64,000 nucleotides of DNA from Helicobacter brantae (GTDB lineage Bacteria; Campylobacterota; Campylobacteria; Campylobacterales; Helicobacteraceae): NCBI RefSeq assembly GCF_003364205.1, contig NZ_NXLV01000004.1, forward strand, positions 62,001-126,000, written 5' to 3'. The position numbers and the translations under genes are program-made. The notes beneath the pieces were generated by a model that saw nothing but the letters and a program-made list of their open reading frames with translations, did not search any database and was not told where the DNA came from. Below are positions 3,734 to 64,000 of this stretch, in pieces. The first letter of the stretch is position 1, and each line of letters opens with the position of its first letter.

Positions 3734-5047
3734 ATGGTAAAAAAATATTTTGGATTCAATACTTCTCTTTCATTGCTCTTTTGTTTTTTGTTTCTTGGAA
3801 CCACCATTAGATGGACTACCACAAGCATAGAGATTTTGGTTTTTATTTTTATGGTGAGTCTTTATTTTTTTAAGAAAAAAAAAGAAGTATTTGTCTTAAA
3901 AATTCCAAGAGAGCAACAAATTTTTTTATATGCATTAATTTTTGTTTTGTTTAGCTATCTCTTGACTTTTGTGTTAGGGAAGGGGTGGGAATTAGAGAGT
4001 ATAAAAAGACCAGGTTATCCCTCATTGACAGATTTAGATATTCCTACGCGATATTTTTTGGGCATTTTTATTGTTTTATTGTTTTTAAAGTTGAAATTCA
4101 ATCTCAACAAGAGAATTATTGCGTATTGTGTCGGTATAGGTGCAATTATAAATGGATGTTTTGCTTTGTATGAGCGATACATTTTGGGAATGCAAAGAGT
4201 TGATGCTTTTGTGGGTATTGCAGAAATGGCAACCGCTTCATCACTATTGTGTTTGTTTAGTGTAATTTTCTATGCTTTTTCCACATCAAAAAAAGAACAG
4301 ATTTTTTTTGCTATCGCCTCTCTTTTTGCTTTTAGTGCCTCTTTTTCTACGGCAGCAAGATCGGCAATGATTAGTCTACTTATAGCCTTTTGTATTTTGC
4401 AGATTGTTTTTTTGTTTAAGAATAAAAGAATGTTTAAAAAAACTTTTGTAGCAATAGGGGGAATGCTGATTGTTTTTTCTTTGCTTTGGGCCTTTCCTGT
4501 GGGGAAAGATACTTTCAGATTGCAACAAATTCAAGTTGATATTGATCAGTATGCCAAAGATAATCCTCAGACAAGCATTGGGATGAGATTTGAGATGTGG
4601 AAAGAGGCATGGACGATGCTAAAAATATCTCCAGTTTATGGAATGAGCACAGCAATGATTGCAAAGCGAACAAATGAAATTATCCAAAAAAGTGGAAGCA
4701 GAATTAGATCTGAGAATGATTTGGGGGTAAGAGGGACTAAGCATAGTCAAATTATGGAGGCATTGGCAAAGAGAGGGATTGTTGGTTTATTAGCTTTATT
4801 GTTGTTTTGGTGGACATCACTTCGAATGTTTGGTTATAACTTATCTCAATGTCAAGGTGAGGAGTTAAAATATAGAATTTGTGGTTTTTTGACAATTCTG
4901 TATTTTATTTTTATCAACTCTTTCACTGGAGAGCCTTGGGATTCTATGGTTGATACTCCGATGATTATCCTTTTGTGCTCACTTTTTTTAAAATTTATCA
5001 ATCAGGAAACAAATGAAAAAGAAAATTTCAGTCACTATCATTGCTAA
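3734..5047 (+). CDS. O-antigen ligase/polymerase-like membrane protein (WaaL/Wzy_C type)
   Basis: A 437-aa polytopic inner-membrane protein with about 10-12 hydrophobic segments. A periplasmic loop carries SIGMRFEMWKEAWTMLKISP and PVYGMST, typical of the Wzy_C/O-antigen ligase family (PF04932), and RSAMISLL precedes it. Such proteins join a lipid-linked glycan to lipid A-core (WaaL) or polymerise repeats (Wzy); sequence reading alone does not separate the two. It sits between two sets of LOS glycosyltransferases, which favours a ligase role. ATG 3734 is the start; the 3' end overlaps the GT2 gene by 35 bases. An A9 run at 3875-3883 lies in codons 48-50. Confidence 0.75.
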   Translation: MVKKYFGFNTSLSLLFCFLFLGTTIRWTTTSIEILVFIFMVSLYFFKKKKEVFVLKIPREQQIFLYALIFVLFSYLLTFVLGKGWELESIKRPGYPSLTDLDIPTRYFLGIFIVLLFLKLKFNLNKRIIAYCVGIGAIINGCFALYERYILGMQRVDAFVGIAEMATASSLLCLFSVIFYAFSTSKKEQIFFAIASLFAFSASFSTAARSAMISLLIAFCILQIVFLFKNKRMFKKTFVAIGGMLIVFSLLWAFPVGKDTFRLQQIQVDIDQYAKDNPQTSIGMRFEMWKEAWTMLKISPVYGMSTAMIAKRTNEIIQKSGSRIRSENDLGVRGTKHSQIMEALAKRGIVGLLALLLFWWTSLRMFGYNLSQCQGEELKYRICGFLTILYFIFINSFTGEPWDSMVDTPMIILLCSLFLKFINQETNEKENFSHYHC

Positions 5048-59801: not shown

Positions 59802-61226
59802 TTGTTTAAGAAGAGTTTGATGATCGGATCATCTTTGATGCTTTTGGTAATGACTGGTTGTTCTACAATCAGCTTGAGTGAGGTAAGTAAGCAGTATTAT
59901 GAAGGGAATGCAAATAAGGCATATGAGCTTGCAAAAAAGGGAGCAAATCTTCCTAAAAAGGGTGAAAAAGAGAAAGATGCAAGTGGTGATGACCTATTGT
60001 GGCAGATCCAAGGTGGAATTATTGGCTTTGATTTGAAAAAGAATGAAGCTGGAGAAATGCTTGAGGTAGCAGAAAAGAATATCAACAAAAATGAATTAGA
60101 GGGAGTTCTTTCAGGATTCTTTCAAAATGTTGGAGCTCTTTTAGTTAATGACACAATTATGCCATACAAGGGATTTTTGTATGAAGGAGCAATGGTTAAT
60201 TACTACAAGGCATTGTTCTATCTATCTCAAAATAAATTGGCTGATGCAAGAGTAGAGTTCAATCGTGCAAGTGATCGTCAAAGACGAATAAAAGAGTATT
60301 ATGAAAAAGAAATTGCAAAAGCAAAAGAGGCTTCAGATAAGGTTGCAAATGACAAGGAAAATAAAGGAGATAAAAAGTCTCAAGAAGAACAACAAAATAA
60401 ATTCTTGGCAAGCTATAAGAATCTCTCTGAATTTGCAAATCTTAATGGATACATCAATCCAATGATTGATTATGTGGCAGGATTGTTCTTTATGCTTGAG
60501 GGAGATAATGGTAAATCCATTGATTTTCTCAAAGAATCTTATGGGGTAAGCAATTCTGAAGTGATCAAGCAAGACTTGGAGACAATTCAAAAAGGTGGAT
60601 ATCAAGAGAAGCAAACATGGGTAATCATTGAAGATGGAAAAAGTCCATTTAAGATTCAAAAGAAATTCTCAATGCCCGTTATTCTCCCAGGAAGTGTAGT
60701 AAGCGTTGATTTGGCTTTGCCTGATTTGAAAAAAGGTGTCGCTTTTGCAAAATCTTATGAGGTTTTAAATGTTGGAAAGGCACAAGCTTATGGGGCATAT
60801 CAGATCTCAACTCTTAATCCTTTGGTATTTAATGAGTTTAGCAAACAGCTTCCTTTTATTATCACAAGAGGAGTTCTTTCTACAAGTATTAAGACTTTAA
60901 CTCAGTATTTTGCACAGCAAGCAGCCAAAAAAGCAGGAGGAATTGCAAGTTTAGCAGTAGGAATTGGTGGAGCGATTTATAGCAAAGCAACAGCTCAAGC
61001 TGACACAAGGATTTCAACAGTTATGCCAAATAGCTTCTATGTTGTGAGAATCAAAAATACAGAGGGCAAGTTTGATGTAAAAGCAGGTGATAAAGTAATC
61101 ACTACAATCAATATGACAACAAAATGTGATGGGGGAAATCAGCAAGTTTGTGTAGATAAAAACAATATTGTTTATATCAGAAATGCACAGAAAAATATTT
61201 TCAAGCAAGTATTGCTTTCAAAATAA
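59802..61226 (+). CDS. COG3014-like TPR lipoprotein
   Basis: A 474-aa lipoprotein: MIGSSLMLLVMTGC puts the lipidated Cys at residue 20. The N-terminal half has TPR-like helices (KQYYEGNANKAYELAKKGANL, YEGAMVNYYKALFYLSQNKLADARVEFNRA, quoted by core), with a charged Lys/Glu/Asp segment around 175-205. A Gly/Ala-rich stretch (QQAAKKAGGIASLAVGIGGAI) sits near 385, and a beta-rich tail follows. This matches the layout of COG3014 proteins, which often neighbour LpoB genes. Start TTG 59802 has AGGAGA 5 bases upstream. First gene of the operon; function unknown. Confidence 0.75.
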   Translation: MFKKSLMIGSSLMLLVMTGCSTISLSEVSKQYYEGNANKAYELAKKGANLPKKGEKEKDASGDDLLWQIQGGIIGFDLKKNEAGEMLEVAEKNINKNELEGVLSGFFQNVGALLVNDTIMPYKGFLYEGAMVNYYKALFYLSQNKLADARVEFNRASDRQRRIKEYYEKEIAKAKEASDKVANDKENKGDKKSQEEQQNKFLASYKNLSEFANLNGYINPMIDYVAGLFFMLEGDNGKSIDFLKESYGVSNSEVIKQDLETIQKGGYQEKQTWVIIEDGKSPFKIQKKFSMPVILPGSVVSVDLALPDLKKGVAFAKSYEVLNVGKAQAYGAYQISTLNPLVFNEFSKQLPFIITRGVLSTSIKTLTQYFAQQAAKKAGGIASLAVGIGGAIYSKATAQADTRISTVMPNSFYVVRIKNTEGKFDVKAGDKVITTINMTTKCDGGNQQVCVDKNNIVYIRNAQKNIFKQVLLSK

Positions 61227-61236
61227 GGAGTAATAT

Positions 61237-61848
61237 ATGAGAATGATTAGAAATATTGCGACAACACTTCTTGTCGCTTTTAGTTTTTATGGTTGTGCTG
61301 GAGGTGCAAGATATATCGACACTGCAAGCACAGAGTATGTCAGCTCAAGTCTTGATCTAAACGATATTAAAAAAGCTGCAACAGATAGCTTGAATTCACT
61401 TTATAAGAGTGGATATTTCAATAGAATCAATATTGATAATCCTGTGGTTTTGGCAGTATCAGATTTTACAAATGATACAACCATCAAGCTAGATATGGAG
61501 CAAATCACAGCAAGGATTGTAGAAGAGCTTCAAAATAGCGGGAAGTTTCTTATCACTCGTGCAATCAGTGGAAGTGGTGGCTCTACAGATCGTATGATTG
61601 ATAGAAGTCGTCAAGCAAGAAACGATGAGGAATACAATCAAGATACGGTAGTAGAAAAAGGCGAAAAACTTGCAGTTTCTGCATCTCTAACTGGTAAGGT
61701 TGGTCAGAGAATTACAAGAGTGGGGAGTGATCAAAGAGTGGATTATTTCTTTAAAATTGAAATCATCAATACAAAAAATGGAATCTCTGTATGGTCAAAA
61801 ACAATCGATATCTCCAAAATGAGTTCTGGCAATAGTTCGGTTTGGTAA
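61237..61848 (+). CDS. LpoB-like lipoprotein
   Basis: A 203-aa lipoprotein, Cys20 in FYGCAGG. A short linker leads to a domain with VVLAVSDFTNDTTIKLDMEQ, IVEELQNSGKFLITRAIS, SRQARNDEEYNQDT and YFFKIEIINTKNGISVWSKTID, the pattern of LpoB (PF13036), the outer-membrane activator of class A PBP1b in E. coli. Whether it activates a PBP here is not shown by the sequence. It lies 10 bases after the TPR lipoprotein gene. A second, related domain occurs in the gene at 62903. Confidence 0.82.
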   Translation: MRMIRNIATTLLVAFSFYGCAGGARYIDTASTEYVSSSLDLNDIKKAATDSLNSLYKSGYFNRINIDNPVVLAVSDFTNDTTIKLDMEQITARIVEELQNSGKFLITRAISGSGGSTDRMIDRSRQARNDEEYNQDTVVEKGEKLAVSASLTGKVGQRITRVGSDQRVDYFFKIEIINTKNGISVWSKTIDISKMSSGNSSVW

Positions 61849-61852
61849 ATAG

Positions 61853-62695
61853 ATGAAGAAAATAGCAGTCTTAAGCGTGTTTCTTGCTCTTTTGGGGGCA
61901 GAAGCACCACAATGGTTTTTGAATCCTAGTGTTGATTCAGGCAAAATCTATGGTTTGGGCAAAGACTCAAGTATTGCATCGGCAAAGAAAAAAGCAATCA
62001 ATGATCTTGTTAATTCTTTGCAAGTAAGTGTAAAATCAACTTTTGATCAAACCAAGATTAAGCAAGACAAAAAAATAAATTCATTGACTTCTCAAACAAT
62101 CAATCTTCAATCTCAAATTGATGATTTGACTAACATTGAGCCTACAAAAGCCCAATGTGATGGAGAAAATCAGTGTTATGTTCAGGTAGAGATAAGCAAA
62201 GCAGATCTTATCAATCAGCTTAAGAGAAGAATTGAGCAAAAAAAGCAAGAGCTTCTATCAAATACTTCTCCATTTGAATACCAATACAGAAAGGGGTTGT
62301 TCTCAAAGATCCAAAGAGATTATGTTCTTTATTTGTCTTTGGGTGGAAGTCCAATGCCAATCCCAGAAGTTGAAGAGAAACCCACATTTGATTTAGTATT
62401 TGAATATGATGGGGATTTTTCTAAAAGCTTTAAGAGTGTTTTGGAGAAAACAATCCAAGACTATCTTACAAAATTTGGGAAGCTTTCTTCAAGTTCGCAG
62501 TGGAAGATTGTTGTAGAAGTGTTGCAAGAAGATAAGAGTGTAACATTGGATATTTCTACAAAATATGGAGGTGAAGTTCTCCATAATGCTTCAGTCTCTG
62601 ACACTCAAAATCCTAGTGTTTCAAAATCTTTTTTTGCAAAGCGATTAGGAGTGCAGGCTTATAAAAAAATGCAAAAATGGGGGAGAGCTGATTGA
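61853..62695 (+). CDS. LPP20/FlgP-like secreted protein
   Basis: A 280-aa exported protein; the signal peptide ends LLGAEA with no lipobox Cys. The first part, PQWFLNPSVDSGKIYGLGKD followed by IASAKKKAINDLVNSL, is the LPP20-type start (PxWFxNP, then G-x-G and an Ala-rich helix). A C-terminal domain with FDLVFEYDGDFSKSFKSVLEK and WKIVVEVLQEDKSVTLDIST is not part of short LPP20 proteins. Position between two LpoB-like genes suggests a complex at the outer membrane. Confidence 0.7.
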   Translation: MKKIAVLSVFLALLGAEAPQWFLNPSVDSGKIYGLGKDSSIASAKKKAINDLVNSLQVSVKSTFDQTKIKQDKKINSLTSQTINLQSQIDDLTNIEPTKAQCDGENQCYVQVEISKADLINQLKRRIEQKKQELLSNTSPFEYQYRKGLFSKIQRDYVLYLSLGGSPMPIPEVEEKPTFDLVFEYDGDFSKSFKSVLEKTIQDYLTKFGKLSSSSQWKIVVEVLQEDKSVTLDISTKYGGEVLHNASVSDTQNPSVSKSFFAKRLGVQAYKKMQKWGRAD

Positions 62696-62865
62696 TGATT
62701 TTTAAAAATATCACAATGGGATACATAATTGCAATCTTTGTTGTGATATTTTCTCTCCCTTTGATTGTTTTAAAATATTTCAACAAAATGTCTTGTAAGA
62801 ATACTTTGCAAGAGCAGAAAAAACCTTCAATTACCCCCCCCCCCTTAGAAGCACACATTTTTTAG
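62695..62865 (+). CDS. 56-aa single-span membrane protein with poly-C tract
   Basis: A small ORF starting at ATG 62695, overlapping the LPP20-like stop as TGATG. It encodes a hydrophobic helix (MGYIIAIFVVIFSLPLIVLKYF, residues 8-29 by core), a basic stretch, then Thr-Pro-Pro-Pro from the C11 tract, and ends LEAHIF. Tract changes alter only the last residues: C10 stops at once, while C12 moves the stop to 62885, close to the ribosome-binding site of the next gene. Tight coupling and a good coding pattern support a real gene, although it is short. Confidence 0.5.
   Translation: MIFKNITMGYIIAIFVVIFSLPLIVLKYFNKMSCKNTLQEQKKPSITPPPLEAHIF
62834..62844 (+). repeat. Poly-C tract, C(11), upstream of the LpoB-barrel gene
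   Basis: Eleven C residues within the 3' end of the 56-aa ORF and 58 bases before the ATG at 62903. Such a tract in an otherwise AT-rich region is expected to slip. It cannot fuse the small ORF to the downstream gene in any frame, so an effect would be on coupling or RNA structure. Confidence 0.9.
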
Positions 62866-62902: not shown

Positions 62903-63991
62903 ATGAAAAAACAATGGATGTTGACTGTTTTTGTTGGCATATTATTATGCTTGTCAGGTTGCTCTTCTAAAAGAATGGCATTACAAACCAAGCTTAGTAT
63001 GAGTGAATTTGAAGAAATTGCTCAAAAAAGTGCTAAAAACTTCTTGAGTGGCTATGCTAAAAAATCAAAGGTGGAAGAACAAACAATTGTGATTTCTGAT
63101 TTTAGTAATGATACAAATTTGAAGTTTAATATGACTTCATTTGCAGAATCTTTTTTGGAAAATGTTAGAAATTCAGATCCTAGATTTAAACTTTCAGCAA
63201 CAATGGGAAAAAGCAAGGAAACCTTGCTTAATGATGCAAGAAAGGTGCGTGATGATGAAGAATTTAGTGCTGAAACTACAAAAGAAAAAGACTCACTTCT
63301 TGCACCCGATCTATTGCTAAGTGGAACAATCACACAAGATTGTGCCTTGATTGATGGAGATGAAATGACAGAATATCTCATTTCTATTAAGCTTACAGAC
63401 ACAAATACAGGAGCTGTAGTTTGGTCAGATCGTCGTATTGTTACAAAAGAGGGAAAATGTCTGATCAAAAAGAAAGTAAGTTCAAATGATGAAGAACAAG
63501 ACACTATGCTTGGATATGAAAATAACTTCTTTATTCTCACGCTTGAGGGGGGATTTGGACAAGGGCATTTGGCAGGTGAGAAAACAAATTATGCTTTTAG
63601 GACAAGATTTGGTTATATGTATCGATGGGATGATGGAAATTATGGATTTGGAGCTTATGGGATTTATGAGCTTAGATCTCAAGGTGTAAAAATCACAGAT
63701 AACAATATTGTAGAAAAGCTCAACTATGGACAAGATGCAGGATTGGGTTTGTTATTTCAAGCTAGCTATTTTTATGCAAGTGCAGGAGTTCTCTATGATC
63801 TTGATGCGATTGATTCAAACTTCTTTAGCAGTGGATATAAAGCAGCAAATCCTTTCTTTGAAGCAGGTTTAATGATAATGACAAAAAATATAGGATTACT
63901 AAGTGGAATTAGATATGTTGTTGCTACTCAAGATCCAAACTACCTTAATAGAGGTATAAGTGGCTCTATTGGTTTGATGTTTGCAATATGA
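62903..63991 (+). CDS. Lipoprotein fusing an LpoB-like domain to a predicted 8-strand beta-barrel
   Basis: A 362-aa lipoprotein from ATG 62903 (GAGG 6 bases upstream; a GTG at 62891 is less likely). Lipobox LSGC gives Cys20. Residues 55-180 are LpoB-like: TIVISDFSNDTNLKFN, DARKVRDDEEFS, LLLSGTI and IKLTDTNTGAVVWSDRR, clearly paralogous to the gene at 61237. Residues 208-362 show about eight alternating amphipathic strands (NFFILTLEGGFGQG, YAFRTRFGYMYRW, YGFGAYGIYELRS, and so on), closing with ISGSIGLMFAI, an outer-membrane barrel-like end. A GAAGGAAGG site right after the stop suggests the operon continues beyond the window. Confidence 0.75.
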   Translation: MKKQWMLTVFVGILLCLSGCSSKRMALQTKLSMSEFEEIAQKSAKNFLSGYAKKSKVEEQTIVISDFSNDTNLKFNMTSFAESFLENVRNSDPRFKLSATMGKSKETLLNDARKVRDDEEFSAETTKEKDSLLAPDLLLSGTITQDCALIDGDEMTEYLISIKLTDTNTGAVVWSDRRIVTKEGKCLIKKKVSSNDEEQDTMLGYENNFFILTLEGGFGQGHLAGEKTNYAFRTRFGYMYRWDDGNYGFGAYGIYELRSQGVKITDNNIVEKLNYGQDAGLGLLFQASYFYASAGVLYDLDAIDSNFFSSGYKAANPFFEAGLMIMTKNIGLLSGIRYVVATQDPNYLNRGISGSIGLMFAI

Positions 63992-64000
63992 GAAGGAAGG

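Follow-up and report, generated by a model that had tools for sequence, protein, structure and literature searches.

An LpoB-fold domain followed by a predicted outer-membrane barrel in a protein lineage of the Helicobacteraceae

The window analysed here, a whole stretch of 64,000 nucleotides (G000:C32:62001-126000), stems from a Helicobacteraceae genome of 1.73 Mb (G000). Close to its end an HP0018-like gene, an LpoB gene, an LPP20-like gene and the gene of P0001 follow each other in this order (Table 1). P0001 is encoded by an intact open reading frame with an ATG start and a TGA stop. The short LpoB upstream just reaches the cut-off of TIGR02722, the NCBIfam equivalog for the PBP activator LpoB (111.7 bits vs 110.55). 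For the LPP20-like protein the score for PF02169 is 24.7 bits when searched as a protein (cut-off 25.9) and 27.0 bits in the genome search. HP0018 has been linked by synteny to HP1457 and tied to envelope maintenance (PMC11394524), and an HP0018-like homologue occupies the same place in the genomes G003 and G004. The LPP20-type proteins HP1454 and HP1456 of H. pylori interact with the flagellar accessory proteins FlgP and FapH (PMC11756786). Proximity of the fusion gene to the HP0018-LpoB-LPP20 genes was found in G000 only; in relatives it lies elsewhere.

Table 1. Positions of genes, domains and tracts around P0001 (window numbering).
Feature	Coordinates	Strand	Basis
474-aa lipoprotein, probable HP0018 homologue, directly upstream of the short LpoB	59802..61226	+	synteny as in PMC11394524
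Ordinary short LpoB, 203 aa, HP1457/Cj0091 type	61237..61848	+	PF13036, 97.6 bits
LPP20-family secreted protein, 280 aa, HP1454/HP1456-like	61853..62695	+	PF02169, weak
Small coupled ORF, ~55 aa, one hydrophobic segment, contains the poly-C tract	62695..62862	+	ATG overlaps stop of upstream gene
Poly-C tract, 11 bases, 58 bp upstream of the P0001 start codon	62834..62844	+	G/C-run scan of the window
P0001, LpoB-barrel fusion gene, 362 aa	62903..63991	+	intact ORF, PF13036, AlphaFold2 model
Lipoprotein signal peptide, lipobox LSGC, Cys20 (residues 1-20)	62903..62962	+	sequence
LpoB-fold domain, predicted periplasmic (residues 34-182)	63002..63448	+	PF13036 and 4q6z fold match
Charged low-confidence linker (residues 183-204)	63449..63514	+	pLDDT <50 at 190-204
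Predicted eight-stranded outer-membrane barrel (residues 205-362)	63515..63988	+	fold matches, strand alternation, conserved in homologues

Only three G/C runs of at least eight bases were found in the window, among them the poly-C tract preceding P0001. Homopolymer tracts of this kind frequently act as gene switches in this group, and by analogy this one is possibly a phase-variation tract, i.e. part of a contingency locus. Read-through or an in-frame phase-variable fusion of the poly-C reading frame into P0001 was rejected because a TAG (62846-62848) follows the tract in the P0001 frame. A convincing promoter was not found for the P0001 gene. Elsewhere in the window, a poly-G11 (2175-2185) inside a glycosyltransferase-family-25-like gene and a poly-C12 (2578-2589) where a 105-aa ORF meets a glycosyltransferase-like one lie in what looks like a phase-variable surface-glycan locus.

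Judging from the lipobox, P0001 is presumably lipidated at Cys20. Its residues 37-177 match the Pfam LpoB family PF13036 with 71.1 bits (cut-off 22.3, E 1.2e-19); the score for TIGR02722 is 58.1 bits and stays below the cut-off of 110.55. A preliminary description had seen in this gene an LpoB-related domain and a C-terminal barrel united in one lipoprotein. The PF13036 match and the AlphaFold2 folds bear this out, and the lipobox is present. The description was right in finding the LpoB domain within residues 55-180 but let it start about 20 residues too late, as the Pfam match (37-177) and the fold (34-182) indicate. At the junction the composition shifts: the barrel contains 17% aromatic residues vs 6% in the LpoB part, 14% vs 3% Gly and 3% vs 11% Lys. 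The protein ends with IGLMFAI, in agreement with the terminal FAI noted earlier. The last residue is Ile after FA or FF in P0001 and in a second fusion protein, P0002, and Phe in the homologues of G132 and G134.

The AlphaFold2 model of P0001 was built on a 12-row alignment with the barrel present in three rows only and reached a mean pLDDT of 75.5 and a pTM of 0.44. In it, an LpoB-type domain is followed by a linker of low confidence (190-204) and by eight strands between residues 208 and 361 (208-219, 227-242, 247-261, 274-287, 290-299, 315-327, 330-344 and 347-361), most of them at pLDDT 80-95; the model gives the two folds but not the relative placement of LpoB domain and barrel. For the fold comparison, VIA-align was run over Foldseek's list. 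Residues 205-362 match NspA (1p4t) with Z 15.2 over 140 aligned residues, the N-terminal barrel of OprF with Z 15.1 and OmpA (1bxw) with Z 14.5, while residues 34-182 match E. coli LpoB (4q6z) with Z 10.1 (rmsd 3.9, 118 aligned). Structure prediction therefore yielded both a closed-type barrel fold and an LpoB fold, the two features whose absence would have spoken against the preliminary description. The small pore considered in the preliminary description does not fit these matches, since the best of them are eight-stranded barrels of the NspA/OmpA kind and not porins. TolB, which occupies Foldseek's top rows, was discarded: its alignment spans both domains with an rmsd of ~20 Å and a TM of ~0.2 and is not meaningful as a whole. 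The separately modelled L105 homologue (Ca. Helicobacter avistercoris) gave barrel matches of up to Z 16.5 and Z 11.9 for LpoB 4q6z, its model and that of P0001 being built on nearly identical alignment rows. Structural support for both predicted folds in the two proteins is good but not deep.

Alternation of hydrophobic and polar residues was examined independently of the fold search, with strand limits taken from the model. In the barrel strands of P0001 it amounts to 2.1 vs 1.19 (SD 0.31) in within-strand shuffles (p 0.003); in the LpoB strands it is no better than in shuffles (p 0.77). The eight alternating C-terminal strands of the preliminary description are thus recovered in the model, and their alternation exceeds chance. 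These results also bear on whether the C-terminal half, instead of being a membrane barrel, might belong to a periplasmic ring or form a soluble beta domain. No Pfam or PDB sequence match to this half was found, and the C-terminal residue is Ile, both of which would suit such a view. Outer-membrane barrels lead the fold matches in two homologues (Z 14-16), the strands of P0001 alternate, and a profile of the region shows weak similarity to TraF-like outer-membrane proteins; hence we consider both of these options highly improbable.

Short turns (243-246, 288-289 and 328-329) take turns with longer loops (220-226, 262-273 and 300-314) in the modelled barrel, a pattern as in outer-membrane barrels. 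Since the number of strands is even, the N-terminal domain and the C-terminus of P0001 would both be periplasmic, with the longer loops pointing outward. A surface-variable protein for host or phage contact could have such a topology: the barrel would display loops, the poly-C tract would switch expression and the LpoB domain would mainly serve as a periplasmic stabiliser. Besides the position of the poly-C tract and the loops exceeding the turns in length, one ~50-residue low-complexity loop in P0002 is in line with this proposal. So are findings on the LpoB orthologue of C. jejuni, Cj0091, which is located in the outer membrane and is required for C. jejuni to adhere to INT 407 cells and to colonise chickens early on (PMC3100323); for LpoB orthologues from this phylum we found no other experimental results. 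We nevertheless regard the proposal as doubtful, as the loops of P0001 are short, the poly-C tract lies inside the small ORF with the TAG behind it blocking a read-through fusion, and adherence defects can be indirect.

P0002 (374 aa) is encoded in the same genome beyond the window end at 64000 (L004:8018-9142, minus strand, corresponding to G000:C32:126017-127141). Its gene is convergent to that of P0001, with 25 bp between the stops, and lies directly after topA. The protein has a Sec signal without a lipobox, a linker of 49 residues and the C-terminus FSFFI; its second loop, the one of ~50 residues mentioned above, is rich in Ser, Lys, Asp and Glu. A recent duplication was dismissed as the origin of the pair: P0001 and P0002 are ~34% identical, and the gene of G004, with which P0002 pairs, also directly follows topA.

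PF13036 occurs in 102 of the 121 family genomes. Most copies comprise ~200-230 aa, and many genomes additionally contain ORFs of 340-611 aa, whose C-termini are of two kinds, Sel1/TPR repeats or barrel-like. A profile of the barrel searched against the 121 genomes retrieved G000 (two genes), G004, G132 and G134 at E 1e-54 or better and G018 more weakly (2.8e-6), all remaining matches being no better than ~1e-3. The strong matches are LpoB fusions only; the weak ones that were inspected are TraF-like outer-membrane proteins, apart from a putative barrel protein of 331 aa. Derivation of the barrel from a known outer-membrane family was rejected, the profile reaching only E ~1e-3 to TraF-like proteins and nothing among PDB sequences. 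By eye, the C-termini of the proteins from G006, G026, G102, G105 and G092 appear barrel-like in the alignment, and a search for related loci gave ten, two of them with barrels. The domain pair thus recurs: three or more further genomes of the Helicobacteraceae hold close relatives, and others hold fusions that diverge more strongly and are barrel-like or carry Sel1 repeats. Among the matches listed for an order-wide sample of 399 members, all strong LpoB matches outside the family are short proteins, and weak LpoB matches with long frames exist. Absence of the LpoB-barrel fusion outside the Helicobacteraceae is likely rather than proven. A phage origin was also discarded: PHROGs gave weak matches only, none of which spanned a domain; they were to an Rz-like spanin or to families without a known function.

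The LpoB domains of the fusions form lineages separate from the ordinary ~200-aa LpoB of the HP1457/Cj0091 type. When 73 LpoB domains were placed in a quick tree, 46 ordinary short LpoBs grouped apart from the fusion proteins (99% SH-aLRT). P0001 falls into a five-row barrel group together with P0002 and the proteins of G004, G134 and G132 (95%), its exact placement being unsure because the branches of P0001 and G132 are very long. A second group (90%) mixes barrel-like and Sel1 forms, and a third contains Sel1 forms only, except for one short protein. Six label changes are needed on the tree; consequently, C-terminal extensions have repeatedly been lost or exchanged. The genomic positions vary as well. 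The fusion gene adjoins topA in G000 (P0002) and G004, follows the transketolase gene in G026 and G102, and adjoins kdsB in G132 and G134, where it is located upstream of a TonB-dependent receptor. Beside kdsB in G131 lies a decayed LpoB-fusion gene with several stops (L096, about 4413-4928, minus strand); the copies of G132 and G134 at this place are intact.

A lipobox is present in P0001 and in the proteins of G134, G018, G006, G105 and also G092 (G134 and G092 read by eye). It is absent, with the barrel kept, in P0002 and in the proteins of G004, G132, G026 and G102 (G026 and G102 barrel-like by eye). P0001 combines a lipobox with the predicted barrel, in line with the initial description, but the lipobox is not constant in the family. 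Barrel homologues that lack it imply that the barrel can be the only membrane anchor, and this is the main argument for an anchor role, be it as second or as sole anchor. NalP and SphB1 also carry a lipobox and a C-terminal barrel in one protein (PMC8151025), so that a double anchor is not without precedent.

The genome G000 encodes a single class A PBP (L134:172-2187, minus strand, in the region of G000:C4:22043-22570) with transglycosylase and transpeptidase domains and without UB2H. A genome-wide search for UB2H in G000 gave no match over the cut-off and none at the PBP; E. coli was positive in the control. Three LpoB-domain proteins are encoded in G000, yet its only class A PBP is without UB2H. 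E. coli LpoB reaches PBP1B by a disordered tether of 54 residues (~145 Å) and binds UB2H (PMC9593243; PMC6220978). In P0001 the tether after Cys20 comprises only ~11-13 residues, and the other side of the LpoB domain is tied to the barrel by ~22-25. With no UB2H in the PBP and tethers this short, it is unlikely that P0001 works by the mechanism as known from E. coli.

The missing UB2H, the shortness of the tethers at both ends and the TIGR02722 score below cut-off do not support the PBP-activator-like role that the preliminary description had assigned. They likewise make it unlikely that P0001 is a barrel-anchored activator whose LpoB domain stimulates the class A PBP while the barrel fixes it and may relay surface signals, even though the LpoB fold is conserved in P0001 and L105, outer-membrane anchoring of LpoB tunes the synthesis rate in E. 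coli (PMC9593243) and HP1457 has been proposed by homology as a possible regulator of a PBP (PMC11394524). The 49-residue linker of P0002 could let its LpoB domain reach further into the periplasm, so that a PBP or peptidoglycan partner is possible within the family, and activation of a PBP by P0001 via another contact is possible, too. Very unlikely, in our opinion, is a device connecting surface and periplasm, in which phase-variable barrels sense or bind something outside with their outward loops and the LpoB-fold regulator alters peptidoglycan synthesis or outer-membrane constriction via a UB2H-independent class A PBP route.

Beyond the domain content, predicted folds, recurrence and separate lineage established by computation, we propose that P0001 is probably an LpoB-fold paralogue pinned to the outer membrane and acting close to it, with the barrel as second or sole anchor. 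The short lipid tether would tie the LpoB domain to the inner leaflet of the outer membrane, so that the domain would face the periplasm close underneath, and the linker of ~22 residues would join it to the eight-stranded NspA/OmpA-type barrel. Since several barrel homologues have lost the lipobox, the barrel may chiefly be an anchor that supplements or replaces the lipid. A role near the outer membrane is favoured because the E. coli mechanism is unlikely, Cj0091 is an outer-membrane protein, and HP0018-like, LpoB and LPP20-like genes are the neighbours. The LpoB domain would most likely find its partner at the outer membrane or close to it, and not bind the UB2H of a PBP1B in the manner of E. 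coli. Candidate partners are a further envelope protein encoded at this locus, with an LpoB fold or of the LPP20 type, or factors associated with peptidoglycan.

E. coli LpoB (PF13036; 4q6z, 2mii) shares with P0001 the lipobox, the LpoB fold (Z 10.1-11.9) and the expected outer-membrane placement; it differs in having no barrel, a far longer tether and a PBP1B with UB2H. The short HP1457/Cj0091 proteins, one of which is encoded two genes upstream, belong to the same domain family but comprise ~200 aa, have no C-terminal domain and form a separate group in the tree. OmpA, OprF and NspA resemble the predicted barrel (Z 14-16), and OmpA also pairs a barrel with a periplasmic domain. In contrast, P0001 has the reversed order with the periplasmic domain first, an LpoB fold instead of an OmpA-like peptidoglycan-binding domain, a lipobox and no detectable sequence relation to these proteins. 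With the lipidated autotransporters NalP and SphB1 it has the lipobox and the C-terminal barrel in common; in them, the barrel is a translocator of 12 strands and the passenger is secreted. We found no published description of an LpoB domain with a fused barrel. Both modules are known, and their order, their pairing and the optional lipid are, to our knowledge, new. LpoB-type proteins have been known as regulators on a lipid tether that spans the periplasm, and the barrel lineage represents another way to fix this fold at the outer membrane, in places giving up the lipid. The role of LpoB-fold proteins where the class A PBP lacks UB2H becomes testable, and this concerns the ordinary HP1457/Cj0091 proteins of Helicobacter and Campylobacter as well.

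Helicobacteraceae also contain LpoB + Sel1/TPR fusions of ~500 aa (L072, L073, L075, L076, L079-L088), some having a signal peptide without a lipobox; no description of this architecture was found. As in P0001, the LpoB domain of these proteins (e.g. L075 and L081) carries a C-terminal extension, and they belong to neighbouring lineages, with a Sel1/TPR solenoid where P0001 has the barrel. In two proteins (L069:3630-5120 and L070:4352-5842), a single Sel1-like repeat stands between the LpoB domain and a barrel-like C-terminal part; they are possibly intermediate between the two kinds of fusion.
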